NCBI GenBank assembly: GCA_025350625.1
Contig: JANXXL010000354.1
Location: 1-45,134 of the forward strand
From: Bryobacterales bacterium
GTDB lineage: Bacteria; Acidobacteriota; Terriglobia; Bryobacterales; Bryobacteraceae
Reading direction: 5' to 3'
DNA: 45,134 nucleotides
The translations under genes were made by a program, and so were the position numbers. Numbering within the stretch: position 1 is the first letter of the stretch; every line of letters starts with the position of its first letter. This document shows, piece after piece, positions 13,224-20,347 of this stretch. The notes below the pieces were generated by a model. It saw only the letters and a list, made by a program, of their open reading frames with translations. It searched no databases and was not told the DNA's origin.

Positions 13224-14819
13224 TCAGGTATCTTTCAAATTTCTGACCGTGCGCACCTGGGCGTCCGGGAAAATCTCCTGAAATCGTTTTACTTCGGGGT
13301 GCGAGAGTGCGCGGGTTGCGGCCTCTTGCTCCCGCTGCGGCGCGGCCACAACCTGCCCCGAGGAACGCGCCGTTTCCCCCACTTTAATAGTTATGCGGAC
13401 CGGTCTGCCCGCCGCCCTCTTGGCAGCGGCTTCGAATTCGCTTTGCTTCAGGTAAAGTTGATACATCTTCGGCGTAATGAATACCAGCTCATTAGCAGAT
13501 TCGGTTAGTTCGGAATGTTCGAGCGCGTCCGCCACGTGCGTCAATTTGGCGTCGATCAGAGCGGCGTGCAAACGGGACCGCAGATCGCCGCCGGCAAGCG
13601 TTTCCAGCGGAGCGGTTGCCGCCGGCGCGGCCGCCAGTTGGGCGGGCTTGGGAGCGGCGCGCGACGCAGACCGCGTCCCAGGCCCGGCTGTTCCGCCCGG
13701 CAATCCCGCGAGCGCTTCTTCGATGGACAGTAATCGGCCCGCCTGGACCATCCGCAGCAGACCCATCTCCAAATGCAGCCGGGGCTGCAGCGAGCTTTGC
13801 AAGTCACGAAACAAATCCAGCGATAACTGCAAATAACGCGTGAGATCCTCTTCGCTGAAGTGCGCGGCGGCTTCAGCCAGCTTTTGCTGTTCGGCCTGGG
13901 ATGCCGCCACCAGCCGGGTCTCGCCGCCGCTAATTTTCACCACCACCAGGTTGCGGAAATGCCGCGCCAGCTCGCGAGCGAAATGTTGCAGGCTGCGGCC
14001 GTTGGCTTCGAGTTCCGCCACTACCGCAAACATTTCCGGGGCGTCATTCCCGGCGAGAGCGGTAGTCACGCGTCCCAGCGATTCGAGCGAAAACATGCCG
14101 AGCAACGTACGCACCTCGGCCGCGTCCAGCTTGTTTCCGCAGCACGCAATAGCCTGGTCGAGCGCGGAAAGCGAATCCCGGACGCTGCCCTCACCGGCGC
14201 GCGCGAGAACGGCCACGGCATCGGCGTCGGCAGTGATGCCTTCCTGCTGCATGATCCATTCCATGCGCGCGACGAGCTCCGCGAAATCGACTGAGCGGAA
14301 ACTGAACTGCTGGCAGCGCGACACGATGGTCGAGGGAATTTTGTGGGACTCGGTGGTGCATAGGATGAACACCACCCACTCGGGCGGTTCCTCCAGCGTC
14401 TTAAGCAAGGCGTTGAAGGCTTCGCTGGTGATTTGATGGGCTTCGTCGACGATAAAAACTTTGTAGCGGTCGCGCGCGGGCCGGAAGCGCACGCTCTCGC
14501 GCAGTTCGCGCATTTCGTTGATCCCGCGATTCGACGCGGCGTCGATTTCGATCACGTCCATCGACGATCCTTCGCCGATTTCGAGGCAACTGACGCACTT
14601 GCCGCAGGGCGCGGGCGTTGGTCCCTGTTCGCAGTTAAGGCAACGCGCAAAAATCCGCGCCACCGTGGTTTTGCCAGTGCCGCGCTGACCCGAAAAAATG
14701 TAGCCGTGGGCGATGCGTCCCTGGGTAATCGCGTTTCCGAGGGTGGTTTTGACGTGTTCCTGGCTGATCAGCTCGTCAAATCCCTGGGGCCGGTACTTGC
14801 GAGCGATGACTTGGTACAT
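13224..14819 (-). CDS. dnaX: DNA polymerase III subunit gamma/tau
   Basis: DnaX is the clamp-loader ATPase of the replicative polymerase, 531 residues here. Domain I has the P-loop GQRGTGKTTVA (about residues 43-53), the zinc site CLNCEQGPTPAPCGKCVSC and Walker B IVDEAH. Sensor 1 (CTTESHKI) and the SRC motif (IVSRCQQF) follow. Domain III and a Pro/Ala-rich linker (about 375-405) lead to a divergent C-terminal tau-like domain. I see no clear slippery A-run for programmed frameshifting, so only the long form may be made. The leader between ffs and this ATG is only about 30 bases, so dnaX may be read from the ffs promoter. Confidence 0.96.
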   Translation of the reverse strand: MYQVIARKYRPQGFDELISQEHVKTTLGNAITQGRIAHGYIFSGQRGTGKTTVARIFARCLNCEQGPTPAPCGKCVSCLEIGEGSSMDVIEIDAASNRGINEMRELRESVRFRPARDRYKVFIVDEAHQITSEAFNALLKTLEEPPEWVVFILCTTESHKIPSTIVSRCQQFSFRSVDFAELVARMEWIMQQEGITADADAVAVLARAGEGSVRDSLSALDQAIACCGNKLDAAEVRTLLGMFSLESLGRVTTALAGNDAPEMFAVVAELEANGRSLQHFARELARHFRNLVVVKISGGETRLVAASQAEQQKLAEAAAHFSEEDLTRYLQLSLDLFRDLQSSLQPRLHLEMGLLRMVQAGRLLSIEEALAGLPGGTAGPGTRSASRAAPKPAQLAAAPAATAPLETLAGGDLRSRLHAALIDAKLTHVADALEHSELTESANELVFITPKMYQLYLKQSEFEAAAKRAAGRPVRITIKVGETARSSGQVVAAPQREQEAATRALSHPEVKRFQEIFPDAQVRTVRNLKDT

Positions 14820-14849: not shown

Positions 14850-14951
14850 GCCAGACCCCGGGTGATCCGCGGCACACGGGTTTAACCGCTACCGTTGCTT
14901 CCTTCCGGACCTGGCGGGGTTTGCAGCCGCCCGTTGCACGAAGCCCGGAGC
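14850..14951 (-). ncRNA. ffs: Small signal recognition particle RNA (4.5S type)
   Basis: The minus strand carries the universal SRP domain IV signature: CCAGGTCCGGAAGGAAGCA (near 14896-14914) with the GGAA-type tetraloop and the symmetric and asymmetric internal loops that bind Ffh. The flanks can pair into a rod: CCGGG near the 5' end with CCCGG near the 3' end, and ACGGG with CCCGT further in. The length, about 100 bases, fits the short bacterial form without an Alu domain. Ends are estimated from pairing; the 5' end may reach about 14958 if transcription starts 7 bases after the -10. The next gene downstream is dnaX, the order known from Firmicutes. Confidence 0.9.
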
Positions 14952-14964
14952 CTGACAACTTCCT

Positions 14965-14973
14965 ATGCTACCA
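14965..14973 (-). promoter_or_regulatory. Extended -10 promoter of ffs
   Basis: The minus strand reads TGGTAGCAT, an extended -10 (TGN plus TAGCAT). It predicts transcription from about 14958, just ahead of the SRP RNA rod. The -35 region is weak. Confidence 0.45.
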
Positions 14974-15063: not shown

Positions 15064-16641
15064 ATGAATACTTACAAGGTTCTCATCGCAGAAGATGAAG
15101 GCTTAATCGCCATGGATATCGCGGCGCACCTCGAGGCGTTGGGCCATACCGTCGTCGCCACGGTAAGCACCGCCGCCGAGGCGATCGAGCAAGCCCCCAA
15201 CGCGCAGGTGGTGCTGATGGACATACGCCTGGATGGGCCCGTGGATGGCATCGAGGCCGCTAGCAAGATTCGCGAACGGTATCGCCTTCCGGTGCTGTTC
15301 CTGACCGCTCAGGCCGATCCCTCGACGCTGGAGCGCGCGAAACTGGCGGCGCCGTTCGGCTACATGATCAAACCGCTGGTGCATGCTTCCCTGCAGCCGA
15401 GTATCGAAATCGCGATGCATAAGCACAAGATGGAAATTCGCCTGGAGGAAAGCGAAGCGTGGCTGCGGGCTACGCTCGCCTCGGCGGCGGATGCGGTAAT
15501 CGTCACCGATCTTGAGGGCCAGATCCGGTTCCTGAATCCCGCAGCGGAGGCACTGGGTGGACGCGCCTTGACCGCAGTTTCACAGTTTTTACCCGAAGAT
15601 CCGGTGCCGCTGGCTATTCTTCAGGATCGTCCCGTGGCCATCGAGACACGGCTCGCCGAACAGTGGGTGGAGGGCTCGGCATCGCCGCTTAAGCTATCCG
15701 GGGAGGCGATCGGCGGAGTGGTCACTTTGCGGGATGTTACCGCCCGCCGCCGCGAGGAGCAGCGGTTGCTGCATTTGGAAAAAGCCGACATGGCGGCTCG
15801 GCTGGCCACCGCCGTAGCCGTTGATTTTGCCAGCCCGATCGAGGCCATCCGCAACCATTCCGCGCAACTCCTGCGGCAGTTCGCCGATTACTCGCCGGTG
15901 TTTACCGCCATCAAGGAAATCCATCAGGCGGCAGTTGCGGCCGATAAAATGAACCGCCGCTTAGCCGACCTGGGCCCGCAGCCCCACGGACCGCTGCAAC
16001 TTACCAGTGTCAACGGAATTCTGCGGCGCATGTTTAAGTTCATTCAATCCGTGGCCGGCGATCGGGTCGCCGTCACACTCCACGCAGATCCGGACGCCGG
16101 AAAAATCTACGCCGACGCGGCGCACATCGAAGAACTAATCATGCAATTCGTCCTCTATGCCGTCAAAGCGATGCCCGATGGCGGCCAGTTGGGTCTGAGC
16201 ACCGTGGCTGCAGCCGATCGAGTTTTGGTCTCGGTTACACATACCGGTTCCCCTGCAGATATCGAGAGCGTAAATTTGTCCTTGATGCGCTACTTCACCG
16301 GCGACGGAAACCGGCTGGAGGCTTCGTTTGAGCAGTGGACCGACTCTGCAGCCGCGGCGGGGACCCCGCCCACCCTCTTATTGATCGAGCCTCGGGAGCA
16401 CATCCGCGCGCGCCTGCACAACGTGTTCGAATCGAACGGCTATAATTTGCTGGAGGCTGCCGACGAGACCCAGGCCAACGCTCTGCTCGACCTGCACGAA
16501 GTCGACCTGGTGATTGGAGGCGACGTCGACCAGGACGCAGTTCCGGTTCTGCGTCTGCGACCGCCCTACACCGAGCAGCAGTTGCTGGAAGAAGTACGCG
16601 CGCGCCTGGATCCGCCGCTTACTTTTTCCGCGTCGAAGTAG
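15064..16641 (+). CDS. Receiver-PAS protein with degenerate histidine-kinase and second receiver
   Basis: The protein has 525 residues from ATG 15064; ATG 15043, with AGGG 9 bases before it, would add seven. The N-terminal receiver is intact: acidic pocket E10-D11-E12, phospho-acceptor D53, T81 and K103. A PAS domain follows (about 130-227, ADAVIVTDLEGQIRFLNPAAE). Next comes a kinase half resembling the HisKA/HATPase type, but its key residues are gone: V253 stands where the phospho-His should be (AVAVDFASPI for the usual AVAHDFNN), Y365 replaces the N-box Asn, and the DxGxG box reads HTGSP. The C-terminal segment (about 430-515) resembles a receiver without acidic pocket or Asp. It is predicted to receive phosphate but not make it. 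Its frame overlaps the convergent LolA-like gene by 23 bases. Confidence 0.88.
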   Translation: MNTYKVLIAEDEGLIAMDIAAHLEALGHTVVATVSTAAEAIEQAPNAQVVLMDIRLDGPVDGIEAASKIRERYRLPVLFLTAQADPSTLERAKLAAPFGYMIKPLVHASLQPSIEIAMHKHKMEIRLEESEAWLRATLASAADAVIVTDLEGQIRFLNPAAEALGGRALTAVSQFLPEDPVPLAILQDRPVAIETRLAEQWVEGSASPLKLSGEAIGGVVTLRDVTARRREEQRLLHLEKADMAARLATAVAVDFASPIEAIRNHSAQLLRQFADYSPVFTAIKEIHQAAVAADKMNRRLADLGPQPHGPLQLTSVNGILRRMFKFIQSVAGDRVAVTLHADPDAGKIYADAAHIEELIMQFVLYAVKAMPDGGQLGLSTVAAADRVLVSVTHTGSPADIESVNLSLMRYFTGDGNRLEASFEQWTDSAAAAGTPPTLLLIEPREHIRARLHNVFESNGYNLLEAADETQANALLDLHEVDLVIGGDVDQDAVPVLRLRPPYTEQQLLEEVRARLDPPLTFSASK

Positions 16642-17404
16642 TGATGGAAAACAGGTCGTCGGTAAGATCCTGATTAAAGCTCACCGAGTCCGCGAAAATC
16701 TGGTAAATCTTTTCGCCGTTGCGTTCGCGTGTTATTTGTTGCGGCCACTGGATGCCCTGGTTGTCGCGATACCGGTCAAAGCGGGTGACCTCTTCGTCGC
16801 GCTCCTTGGATTTCGGATCCAGACGCGAAAAAGATTGTTTTACAGGCAGTTTGGTCGACTGGTGAAAGTATACGCGTACCACGAAGTTGCTGGCGTCGAT
16901 CACGTCCACCACTTCGACGGGCACACGATCTACCACATCGGAGCCGCGCGACTCAAACTCCATTCCCCGCTCGCGCAGCCGCTGCCGCAGAATGTAGAAG
17001 ATATTGTGCAAAGTGGTTTCGCGATGACGATCGAACTCTTCCTGCGGCAGCGGCTTGGGGCCGCGATAGGTGACATTCGCGCCGCCATCTTCGCGCAATA
17101 CAACTGCTCCCGAATCTTCGTTTTTTCCGAAAGACTGGCGCTCGCGAACGCCCAACTCGTGAGCGGATTTGGTGGGATCGACGGCGAGATAGCGGGTATA
17201 GATTTTCGCGATGGAAAGCCCTGAAAGATTGTCCCTATAGAACGAATAAGCGCGGCCGGTCTCGACCCGATCCTGCATCTGAAGGAATTTTTCGCCGCCC
17301 AACGCGGCGATGGCGTCATCGAGAACCTTCTTTCCGCGCGCGCCCTCGGGAGTTTCCGCGGTTGCTACCACGGCGAGCAGCGCAACCATAAATATGGGTT
17401 TCAT
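16619..17404 (-). CDS. Exported LolA-like protein
   Basis: This protein of 261 residues has a short signal peptide (PIFMVALLAVVATAET). The body has the look of the LolA/LppX half-barrel used for lipoprotein sorting: GGEKFLQMQDRVETGRAYSF at the start, VEVVDVIDASNFVVRVYFHQ, then LPVKQSFSR and RFDRYRDNQGIQWPQQI with the paired beta-strand pattern. This type is often annotated as outer-membrane lipoprotein-sorting protein in acidobacteria. It is the last gene of a run behind two M16 peptidases, with 10 bases to the preceding stop, so it probably serves the same periplasmic process. A true LolA function is not shown. Its end overlaps the opposing receiver-PAS gene. Confidence 0.75.
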   Translation of the reverse strand: MKPIFMVALLAVVATAETPEGARGKKVLDDAIAALGGEKFLQMQDRVETGRAYSFYRDNLSGLSIAKIYTRYLAVDPTKSAHELGVRERQSFGKNEDSGAVVLREDGGANVTYRGPKPLPQEEFDRHRETTLHNIFYILRQRLRERGMEFESRGSDVVDRVPVEVVDVIDASNFVVRVYFHQSTKLPVKQSFSRLDPKSKERDEEVTRFDRYRDNQGIQWPQQITRERNGEKIYQIFADSVSFNQDLTDDLFSITTSTRKK

Positions 17405-17414
17405 CGGATGAGCC

Positions 17415-18848
17415 TTATTGTGACGGCATCGGCGGAATGCTCAAATCGATGGTTTCAATTTTGCCCGCTGCGCTCAACGGCTTGCCGAAGTCTTTGGAAT
17501 TCCCCACCGCGACGATACTCAGATTCGCGGGGTTGATGTGTTCCTGGAAAACTCGCAATACGTCCGCGCGCGTCACCGCCGCCAGTCGCTTCTGATACTC
17601 GAACAGAAAATCTTTGGGGTAACCGAAATACTCGTACATCATCATTCGGTTGAGGCTCTTCGCCGGACTATCGAAAAAGAAAACAAAACTGTTCAGTACC
17701 GAATCCTTGGCGGTTTTGAGTTCTTGCTCGGTAACTTCGGCGGTGCGCATTTTTTCTACTTCCTTGCGGGCGGCGAGGATGGCATCCGTAGTACTTGCCG
17801 ATTTCGTGCTGCCTACGATGCGGAAGGTTCCCGGATGATCATAGGCCGCACCCCAGCCCGCGCCGATCGAATACGCCAGACCCATTTTGGTGCGAATCTG
17901 CGACATCAGGCGGCTGGTGAATCCGCTTCCCAAAATGTTCGCCGCGACCTGGAGCGCCGGGTAGTCCGGATCGCGCAGAGTGCCGCCCAGCAGGCCCATC
18001 GCAAAGAAAGTCTGCGTCACATCGGGCTTCTCGGCAAGGAAAACACCCGCGGCGGACTTGGCCGTGACGGCTGGGAAAGGAGGAACCGGCGGCTGCTCCG
18101 GGTTCCACCCGGCGAAAAGTTTTTCGAGCTGATCCTTCATCTCGGCTGCTGAAAAATCTCCATAAATGGCCAGCATGATGTTCTTCGGAAAATAGTAGCG
18201 GCGGTAAAACTGCTGCAAATCCTCCCGCCGGATGCGAGCGATGTCCGCGTGTTCGACCGACCATCCATAAGGATTATTGCGGCCATAGAGAATATCCGAA
18301 ATTTCCCGTTCGACGATTGCCTGCGCGTCATCGTTGCGCCGGTCGATCCCGCTATGCGTTTGCGAAATGGTCAGGTCGATTTTGTCGTGCCGGAATTCCG
18401 GTTCGGTCATCACGTCTTTAAAGACGCGCAGCACCGTGGCAGCGGTTTCCTTGAGACCGGAAAAACTGATGCTGGCGTTGGTCTCACCCATATTGGATTC
18501 AACCGCCGCCGCGATATTTTCAAGTTCCTCGTCGATCTGATCGCCGGTTTTGGAGCCCGTACCGCCAGCCCGCAGAACATCCGCCATTACGCTCGAAAGA
18601 CCGCGCTCATCGGGAGGATCGAACAGATTTCCCGTCCGCACCAGAGCCAAGCCATTGATCACCGGCAATTCATGGTCTTCGAGCAGGAAAACGCGCATTC
18701 CGTTCTTGAGTGTGAAGGTCACCGGCTCCGGAATTTTCACTTGCTTCAGGGCCGGATATACCAGTTGCTGGTAGGAGGGAATTGTTTGCGCCGCCGACGT
18801 CGCCGCGGAAACGGCGCAGACGAGCGAGGCCAGGAAAATCCGCTTCAC
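17415..18848 (-). CDS. M16-family peptidase, non-catalytic partner
   Basis: This exported M16 (pitrilysin-like) protein has 477 residues, with the signal peptide IFLASLVCAVSAATSAAQ. The fold is recognisable from the opening TFTLKNGMRVFLLEDHELP through NNPYGWSVEHADIARIRREDLQQFYRRYYFPKNIMLAIYGD. The zinc motif HxxEH is absent: the matching stretch reads RGLSSVMADVLRAGGT. It is therefore the usual inactive partner that pairs with a catalytic M16 subunit. The GTG start overlaps the stop of the upstream active M16 gene by 4 bases, so the two are translationally coupled and probably form a heterodimer in the periplasm. Confidence 0.93.
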   Translation of the reverse strand: MKRIFLASLVCAVSAATSAAQTIPSYQQLVYPALKQVKIPEPVTFTLKNGMRVFLLEDHELPVINGLALVRTGNLFDPPDERGLSSVMADVLRAGGTGSKTGDQIDEELENIAAAVESNMGETNASISFSGLKETAATVLRVFKDVMTEPEFRHDKIDLTISQTHSGIDRRNDDAQAIVEREISDILYGRNNPYGWSVEHADIARIRREDLQQFYRRYYFPKNIMLAIYGDFSAAEMKDQLEKLFAGWNPEQPPVPPFPAVTAKSAAGVFLAEKPDVTQTFFAMGLLGGTLRDPDYPALQVAANILGSGFTSRLMSQIRTKMGLAYSIGAGWGAAYDHPGTFRIVGSTKSASTTDAILAARKEVEKMRTAEVTEQELKTAKDSVLNSFVFFFDSPAKSLNRMMMYEYFGYPKDFLFEYQKRLAAVTRADVLRVFQEHINPANLSIVAVGNSKDFGKPLSAAGKIETIDLSIPPMPSQ

Positions 18849-20347
18849 TTTGCGCTCCCTTCGGGAACAAACGTGTAGGCTACCGTGCGGTGCTCTCTTA
18901 CCAGGTACATTTTGGCGACGCGCTGGACATCATCCGCGGAAACTTTGTTGTAGTCCGCGAGTTCGGTAAACAGCCTGCGCCAGTCGCCGAAATTCACGTA
19001 GTAGCTGCATAATTCCAGAGCCAGTCCGGTATTGCTGGCCAGTTTGCGAATCAGTTCGGCGCGTAATTTAGTCTTCACGCGATCGAGTGTCGCCTCATCC
19101 ACTTTGGTGGTCTGCACCTGTTCGATGATCTGATACAACTCCTTCTCGTTCTCTGCCACGGAATGTCCCGTCGAAGGCGCGACGAAAAACAGAAATAGCG
19201 GCGGATACTTCCCCCCAGGGAACTGAGGCTCGCTGCCCGCACCGAGGGCCATCTGTTTATCCCGCACCATGTCTTTGTAGACAATGCCGGTCCGGCCGTC
19301 TGAAAGGACCGAGTCCAGCACCGCCAGCGCGGCGTTATCTGCCGAATGCCGGTCCGGACGCTTGTAGCCGACGATCAGAAAAGGTTGCGCCGGCGACGAT
19401 ACGGCGACGCGCTTCTCGCCCTCCTGCACGGGCTCCTCGGTGCGATATTGCGAGGGCAGCGGGCGCGCGGCGAGGCGTCCGAAATACTTCTCGGCGAGGC
19501 GGCGCGCCTCCGCCGGGTTGACATCCCCTGCGATTCCGAGCGTCATATTGGCGGGCACATAATATTGCTTATAAAATCGCTCCGCATCCGGGCGGCGGAA
19601 GTGCTCTATGTCCCCGGCCCATCCACCGGGCATGTTGCGATAGGGGTGGGCGGCGAATGCCGTGGCGGCTAAGGCCTCCACCAGCTTGCCCTGTGAGCTC
19701 GATTCCACGCGCATGCGGCGCTCCTCGCGCACCACATCGCGTTCCTTATAAAACTCCCGGAACACAGGATTCAGGAAGCGTCCAGATTCCAGCAAAAACC
19801 ACAGCTCGATGCGGTTTGAAGGAAAACTGTAGTAGTAGTTGGTGGAATCCTCGCCAGTGCTCGCGTTCATATCCGCGCCGCCGTTCGATTCCACTACCCG
19901 GTCGTACTCGTTGGGTTCGATGTAGCTGTCGGCCTTCTCCATGGCGGCCTCGAGCTCGGCCTGAATCGCCGCGATTTTCTGAGCCTCTGCGCGCGGCCCC
20001 CGATTGCGCTCGGCCTCCAGCCGGTCATAAACCCGCTCGACGGCATCCATGGCCGCTTTCTCGGCCGCCCAATTCTTGGTTCCAATGAAAGGCGTGCCTT
20101 TAAAGGCCATATGCTCGAACATGTGCGCTAAGCCGGTCTGGCCGCCGGGATCATCCACCGACCCCACATTCATATACGTATGGAATGAAACCACCGGCGC
20201 ATCGTGGCGTTCAATGACGATGAAATGCAGACCATTCGCGAGCGTGAACTCGGTGACTTTCTTTTCGAAGGACTTTTGCAGTTGGGCGACGGACTGCGCC
20301 GCAAGAAAGCTAGACAACAGCAGAAACAGCAGGAGACTAGGCCTCAT
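18845..20347 (-). CDS. M16-family zinc metallopeptidase, catalytic subunit
   Basis: This exported pitrilysin-type peptidase of 500 residues has a signal peptide (PSLLLFLLLSSFLAAQ). The inverted zinc motif HxxEH is intact at H75-M-F-E78-H79 in GLAHMFEHMAFKGT. An inserted charged helix (about residues 90-145, rich in Ala, Glu and Arg) separates it from the downstream NASTGEDSTNYYYSFP region. The R/Y pair of the C-terminal half-family is not required here because the partner gene follows. GGAG lies 4 bases before the ATG. It sits 22 bases after the ODP-like gene, so the four minus-strand genes from 21134 to 16619 may be one operon. The likely role is periplasmic peptide degradation; the substrate is unknown. 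Confidence 0.95.
   Translation of the reverse strand: MRPSLLLFLLLSSFLAAQSVAQLQKSFEKKVTEFTLANGLHFIVIERHDAPVVSFHTYMNVGSVDDPGGQTGLAHMFEHMAFKGTPFIGTKNWAAEKAAMDAVERVYDRLEAERNRGPRAEAQKIAAIQAELEAAMEKADSYIEPNEYDRVVESNGGADMNASTGEDSTNYYYSFPSNRIELWFLLESGRFLNPVFREFYKERDVVREERRMRVESSSQGKLVEALAATAFAAHPYRNMPGGWAGDIEHFRRPDAERFYKQYYVPANMTLGIAGDVNPAEARRLAEKYFGRLAARPLPSQYRTEEPVQEGEKRVAVSSPAQPFLIVGYKRPDRHSADNAALAVLDSVLSDGRTGIVYKDMVRDKQMALGAGSEPQFPGGKYPPLFLFFVAPSTGHSVAENEKELYQIIEQVQTTKVDEATLDRVKTKLRAELIRKLASNTGLALELCSYYVNFGDWRRLFTELADYNKVSADDVQRVAKMYLVREHRTVAYTFVPEGSAK

Follow-up and report, generated by a model that had tools for sequence, protein, structure and literature searches.

The gene studied here occupies positions 15064–16641 on the forward strand of the window, by which is meant the whole stretch of 45,134 nucleotides that was analysed, and translates as one open frame of 525 codons (525 aa) with no internal stop. 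A longer frame starting at 14965 was set aside because start positions in orthologues favour 15064, the start common to them. The encoded protein has the order REC1–PAS–pseudoHK–pseudoREC. On the reverse strand upstream lies a divergent dnaX-like gene (13224–14819), identified from its translation and from genes 70–72% identical to it that adjoin the related loci of genomes G007 and G009, and which we take to be dnaX (DNA polymerase III gamma/tau); an SRP RNA (14853–14950, reverse strand; Rfam RF00169, 72.9 bits) sits between it and the pseudokinase gene. Neighbourhood comparison defines a convergent three-gene block on the other side (16619–20347, reverse strand), made up of a 261 aa gene and two genes that are presumably M16-peptidase-like; in 11 of 18 neighbourhoods the pseudokinase gene has a homologue of the 261 aa gene next to it.

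The N-terminal receiver, REC1 (15064–15417; all domains of the gene lie on the forward strand), is intact. Residues 1–118 match Pfam Response_reg (E = 1.3e-20), and the domain carries all the residues expected of a receiver: the acidic pair E10/D11, the phospho-acceptor D53 (15220–15222), T81 (15304–15306) and K103 (15370–15372). The initial annotation had singled out D53, T81 and K103 as retained, and all three proved invariant in 19 orthologues. A fold comparison with VIA-align was filled by receiver matches (best Z 20.7), in agreement with a receiver fold for REC1, and so gave little information on the kinase half. In the AlphaFold2 model a long helix (residues 107–142, 15382–15489; pLDDT low at 137–141) connects REC1 with a PAS domain at about residues 134–225 (15463–15738), which is supported by the model and by Pfam PAS_4 (E = 6e-8).

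The kinase half comprises a DHp helix pair (residues 226–301, 15739–15966), recognised from sequence boxes and the model, and a CA-like domain (residues 311–425, 15994–16338) defined by boxes, alignment and model, which has no N-box Asn, DxGxG or ATP lid. Pfam gave no HisKA match to the protein at E ≤ 1 and an HATPase_c match (E = 0.064) that fell short of its cut-off; NCBIfam kinase models do match, with AtoS at E = 7.4e-24 over residues 122–403 and CckA at E = 2.4e-17, so the segment derives from a kinase half. V253 (15820–15822) stands at the phospho-His site of the DHp, Y365 (16156–16158) at the N-box Asn and H393 (16240–16242) at the Asp of DxGxG, where the motif reads HTGSP, exactly the three substitutions that had been reported before; the alignment shows that a deletion has removed the ATP lid, which normally joins the G1 and G2 boxes, from the window, G002 and G003. 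Judged from these motifs, the residues that a kinase needs to bind ATP and to phosphorylate itself are gone from this half of the protein. With no phospho-His, N-box Asn, DxGxG or G2 box it does not class as a HisKA-type histidine kinase.

The C-terminal receiver (residues 437–515, 16372–16608), delimited by invariant columns and the model, is both shortened and mutated, part of it being deleted in the window, G002 and G003. Its loss of acidic residues, proposed earlier, is seen in E442-P443 at the acidic pair and extends to G486 at the phospho-Asp and P500 at the Lys, so that it does not qualify as a working receiver. It nevertheless keeps an invariant pattern, R-x3-H-x2-FE-x2-G-x-NL-x-EA, across alpha1-beta2. 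Among 19 orthologues REC1 is the best conserved domain (28/113 columns invariant) and the remaining domains are all less conserved, with 15/90 invariant columns in this second receiver (REC2) compared with 9/114 in PAS, 6/78 in DHp and 3/104 in CA. The pseudokinase gene of G022 (locus L019) has repeat-like in-frame insertions in the pseudo-receiver (TDTLMDTPMDTLMDTLMDTP).

Structure prediction, put forward as a check by the initial annotation, bore out its view of a kinase part without catalytic residues but with a fold-like sequence. The AlphaFold2 model, built from an 11-row alignment, has a mean pLDDT of 81.7 and shows a receiver, a PAS domain, a two-helix DHp (226–272 and 277–301), a sheet like that of a CA domain and a second receiver that is shortened; its pTM of 0.33 leaves the arrangement of the domains uncertain. 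Foldseek searches with this model returned PAS/LOV-DHp-CA kinases as top matches (E about 1e-15), with LvrB (8vc9), a receiver-gated kinase, at best rank 10 (E = 5.3e-13); DivL was not in the best 50 matches listed.

A scan of genome contigs with the window protein alone gave no relative, and one with a 19-row alignment gave six long matches (L120–L125). Orthologues are present in 19 of 23 genomes of the genus, the window's nearest relatives being only 55% identical; none was found in G001, G004, G008 or G015, whose completeness is 95–99%. The phospho-His is lost in 18 of the 19 (replaced by A, T, S, N, E, V, G, C or D), the N-box Asn in all 19 (His in 17, Tyr in the window, Gly aligned in G022) and the DxGxG Asp in all 19 (Tyr or His in 18, Ala in G022), although the boxes of G022 align only loosely. 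The losses are thus shared by homologues, as had been suggested as a check: all 18 other genus members miss the N-box Asn and the DxGxG Asp and 17 of them the His. None of these 18 is a close homologue whose H and N boxes are both intact, the finding that would have spoken for recent decay, and intact boxes occur only outside the genus among the genes read. The exception, G017 (locus L010), keeps its phospho-His with N-box and DxGxG lost, and could act as a phosphotransfer-only (HPt-like) domain.

Selection was estimated by the Nei–Gojobori method from six close pairs drawn from the 19 sequences, two sequences being used twice each and the window in none. Overall dN/dS was 0.09–0.16, with 0.05–0.17 for REC1, 0.05–0.24 for PAS, 0.07–0.25 for DHp (one pair undefined), 0.09–0.34 for CA and 0.07–0.38 for the pseudo-receiver; every defined domain value was below 0.4.

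In 17 of the 18 other genus genomes with the pseudokinase, a kinase gene of about 350 aa with the architecture REC-HisKA_2-HATPase lies directly upstream on the same strand; in G017 both genes are at contig ends. An orthologue of this partner is found in 18/18 other genomes with the pseudokinase versus 0/4 without it (Fisher 5.6e-4, relatedness ignored), no HisKA_2 kinase having been found in G001, G004, G008 and G015, and the two genes seem to come and go as a unit. REC, HisKA_2 and HATPase_c were found in all of nine partners scanned with Pfam. The boxes HHRVKNN and NEL(V/I)(S/T)N were intact in all 15 partners inspected (of 18), one of which, from G007, has NNG in place of the D-D/N-G of the others. 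The G022 partner (L046:17831–19288) carries extra sequence in its receiver.

The question of which kinase acts on D53, raised at the outset, thus gains a candidate by gene order in the relatives, the upstream REC-HisKA_2 kinase, which was not found in the window assembly, linked or elsewhere. No remnant was detected in the window by tblastn with 15 partner proteins either (best E = 0.23). In G007 and G009 the order is dnaX, the same SRP stretch (as read in translation), partner kinase and pseudokinase, so that on comparative grounds it is simplest to suppose that the window lineage lost its partner gene. The window assembly is 89% complete with 5.5% contamination, so misassembly, or a partner elsewhere in the genome, is possible. 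A single HisKA_2 kinase turned up in the genome of the window (G000), on contig C115; it is 40% identical to the missing partner over the kinase part and has what we take to be a PAS-like front half. At that locus (L201:2672–5953) it adjoins a regulator gene, presumably a REC-PAS-sigma54 activator, and the kinase is a possible substitute donor for REC1.

Beyond the genus, 34 further REC-PAS-HK genes were compared, from 31 loci selected for their resemblance to a profile built on the 19 genus sequences. Profile searches covered 150 genomes at E ≤ 1e-60 and 237 genomes at E ≤ 1e-90, with only the top few candidates per genome scored; loci were taken where matches started by profile position 5 and reached 390 or beyond, G122 (4–548) and matches ending before 280 being left out. 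Sixteen of these genes have H, N and D, 17 have no His, and the remaining one, from G112, retains H and D without N. The intact REC-PAS-HK-REC genes belong to other genera of the same family and share the domain order, with homology over about 600 profile positions; they differ from the window gene in having an intact C-terminal receiver as well as intact H, N, DxGxG and G2 boxes (e.g. G147, G079 and G113). The phospho-His is absent from 35 of the 53 sampled genes, a sample that leans toward dead copies, since such copies made up the profile used for the search; among HisKA domains in general the figure given in the available text of Bourret and colleagues is 0.9% (722 of 76,471) (PMC12632262).

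On a tree of REC1 and PAS, from which the kinase columns were left out, the 19 genus genes form one clade (100/99). The distribution of dead and intact copies on this tree takes seven changes, of which four are forced by well-supported branches with G112 left out (five were obtained by counting G112 as dead); with three long-branch rows also left out there are five changes in all. The tree itself does not separate loss from gain, but a joint regain of His, Asn, DxGxG and lid is not credible. At L090, L103 and L104 (G150, G239 and G238) two REC-PAS-HK copies stand in tandem on the same strand; after them come a gene for a small receiver, then a large gene, and then one for a HisKA_2 kinase. All six copies are without the phospho-His, and one copy each in G238 and G239 keeps N and DxGxG.

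A HisKA_2 gene lies within the fetched stretch (5.6–18 kb; long-ORF gene calls) at 25 of the 31 other family loci, where 0.1 would be expected; G172 was counted as lacking one, though such a gene sits just beyond its fetched stretch. The association holds at 11/14 loci with dead copies and at 14/17 with intact or nearly intact ones (G112 included), and since dead and intact copies are alike in this respect, the linkage probably predates kinase loss and outlasts it. What is conserved seems to be the reception of a signal from a HisKA_2-type kinase. We propose, at a little under even confidence, that in this acidobacterial family a histidine kinase gated by a receiver, and with a HisKA_2 kinase linked to it, repeatedly became a receiver-gated pseudokinase, at least four times on well-supported branches and seven on the best tree, giving a class of phosphate-controlled adaptors with phosphate coming in on an Asp and going out as a protein contact.

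For the gene itself, we consider it reasonably probable that its product is a pseudo-histidine kinase under receiver control which acts through protein contacts. Within the genus the gene normally comes second in a module of two, and in the window species it seems to have been orphaned. The fold is kept in the model and the catalytic residues are gone from the boxes; maintenance by selection is seen in the dN/dS of relatives, while for the window itself it is represented only by branch rates and mixed codon-position counts. The apparently active partner kinase would phosphorylate D53 of REC1, and by analogy with LvrB this may rearrange the REC dimer and the connecting helix (107–142) into PAS and DHp. 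The kinase half would then pass on this state by contact; as a dimer it would offer a platform for docking or sensing, its partner probably being another two-component protein. Candidate contact surfaces are the DHp and, in the pseudo-receiver, the conserved alpha1-beta2 face, the latter being the best candidate besides the DHp because of the invariant columns in REC2. With no copy of the cognate kinase in the window assembly, this mechanism may not run in the window species; there, another donor such as the C115 HisKA_2 kinase may feed REC1, or the protein may act without phosphate.

Parts of this arrangement have precedents. DivL of Caulobacter is not known to carry a fused receiver or to have a HisKA_2 gene as partner. 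In the part of the DivL source available, the protein is described as keeping the DHp-CA fold with no kinase or phosphatase activity, binding a phosphorylated receiver and relaying its state (PMC4211667). It has Tyr at the His site, whereas the window has Val and none of the 19 orthologues has Tyr, which places the gene outside the DivL family; and DivL senses a separate receiver, DivK (PMC4211667), whereas the phosphate input of the window protein is expected on its own receiver. The likeness to LvrB of Leptospira lies in an N-terminal receiver that controls a C-terminal DHp-CA, there activated by the LvrA kinase, the receiver state being passed along the alphaS helix (PMC13269768). As far as the available text describes it, LvrB differs in being an active Rec-DHp-CA kinase (His161) without PAS or C-terminal receiver (PMC13269768); the window gene has the intact N-terminal receiver of such Rec-controlled kinases but not the active kinase half, and a linked upstream HisKA_2 kinase, as candidate donor, is present in 17 genus genomes but not in the window assembly. 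In CheS3 of Rhodospirillum centenum, REC1 is phosphorylated by CheA3 and controls the fused kinase half, which differs in being active and phosphorylating CheY3, as described in the available text (PMC3868531). CCNA_03265 (CC3162) of Caulobacter is described, in the portion of its source available, as a hybrid kinase without the conserved His and with the receiver Asp kept (PMC11481889).

A simpler role for REC1 would be to drain phosphate from the HisKA_2 kinase, or from its receiver, with the remainder of the protein only dimerising or localising it. The conservation of REC1 above all other domains agrees with this, as does a HisKA_2 linkage that outlives the kinase at dead loci. A sink, however, has no obvious need for PAS, DHp, CA and pseudo-REC, yet these evolve in relatives within the dN/dS range of 0.05–0.38, and the alpha1-beta2 pattern of REC2 is strongly invariant; we regard it as rather unlikely. 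The dead DHp/CA might instead pair with an active HisKA kinase and tune it, as the pseudokinase ChrS does with HrrS, whose heterodimers are a precedent in the source consulted in part (PMC9491836). The model keeps the DHp helix pair and DHp core columns are conserved; but the linked kinase is of the HisKA_2 type, a different DHp family, and the neighbourhoods, judged without a Pfam scan, showed no HisKA kinase linked to the gene. Such pairing appears fairly improbable.

A hybrid kinase that is losing its function, with the process furthest along in the window since its partner gene disappeared, would also leave dead boxes. Room for this is left by the partner missing from the window assembly, by the deletions that the window, G002 and G003 have in the ATP lid and REC2, and by the absence of the window from the dN/dS pairs. 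Window and sister branches were compared over 18 of the 19 sequences (the truncated G017 was dropped) and for two of three neighbouring genes, G002 missing for the third. Lengths on the window and sister branches were 0.27/0.32 in REC1, 0.49/0.38 in PAS, 0.59/0.45 in DHp+CA and 0.59/0.44 in REC2, and 0.24/0.19 and 0.17/0.14 in the neighbouring genes. The window:sister ratio is thus 0.84 in REC1, about 1.3 in PAS, DHp+CA and REC2 and 1.2–1.3 in the neighbours, so the dead half is no faster than its lineage. Changes at the three codon positions on the window branch versus the sister stem hint at relaxation in DHp (6, 14, 16 versus 5, 5, 5) and REC2 (12, 9, 11 versus 8, 0, 11), a point in favour of decay; over the whole gene they amount to 58, 52, 88 versus 41, 28, 55, in the same ratio. 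Against decay there also stand the open frame and a loss common to 19 species of one clade. Recent decay looks unlikely, by comparison of homologues, as an account of the dead kinase half, less firmly so for the window species, where some relaxation since the partner disappeared is conceivable; we give ongoing decay of the protein as a whole little credence.

A residual phosphatase activity of the DHp toward a receiver is very unlikely: the residue after the lost His (D254 in the window) is D or E in 19/19 orthologues and N or T stands at +4 in 11, and in the motif H-E/D-x-x-T/N, as treated in the accessible part of PMC3510030, the T/N is needed for phosphatase activity, but the E/D is a kinase-only residue there, the +4 site is not conserved enough (S in the window and six others, G in one), and DivL stabilised its partner instead of dephosphorylating it in the text available (PMC4211667).

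Contact signalling under receiver control is the reading we prefer. Rec-controlled kinases and pseudo-histidine kinases are each known; new, within the open-licence PubMed Central literature searched, are their combination, the HisKA_2 partner and the recurrent origin within a single family; nothing found there describes a receiver-gated pseudokinase with a HisKA_2 kinase as its partner. DivL, ChrS and CCNA_03265 are single cases in the literature as far as consulted, whereas this acidobacterial family offers a natural series in which one protein occurs in intact, half-dead and fully dead form, in most cases with the gene of a HisKA_2 kinase still close by. The series allows a direct question, namely what a receiver-gated transmitter does after its chemistry is lost, and the family supplies matched kinase and receiver pairs with which to test it; the window species, whose assembly is without the kinase gene, offers a natural case of partner loss.
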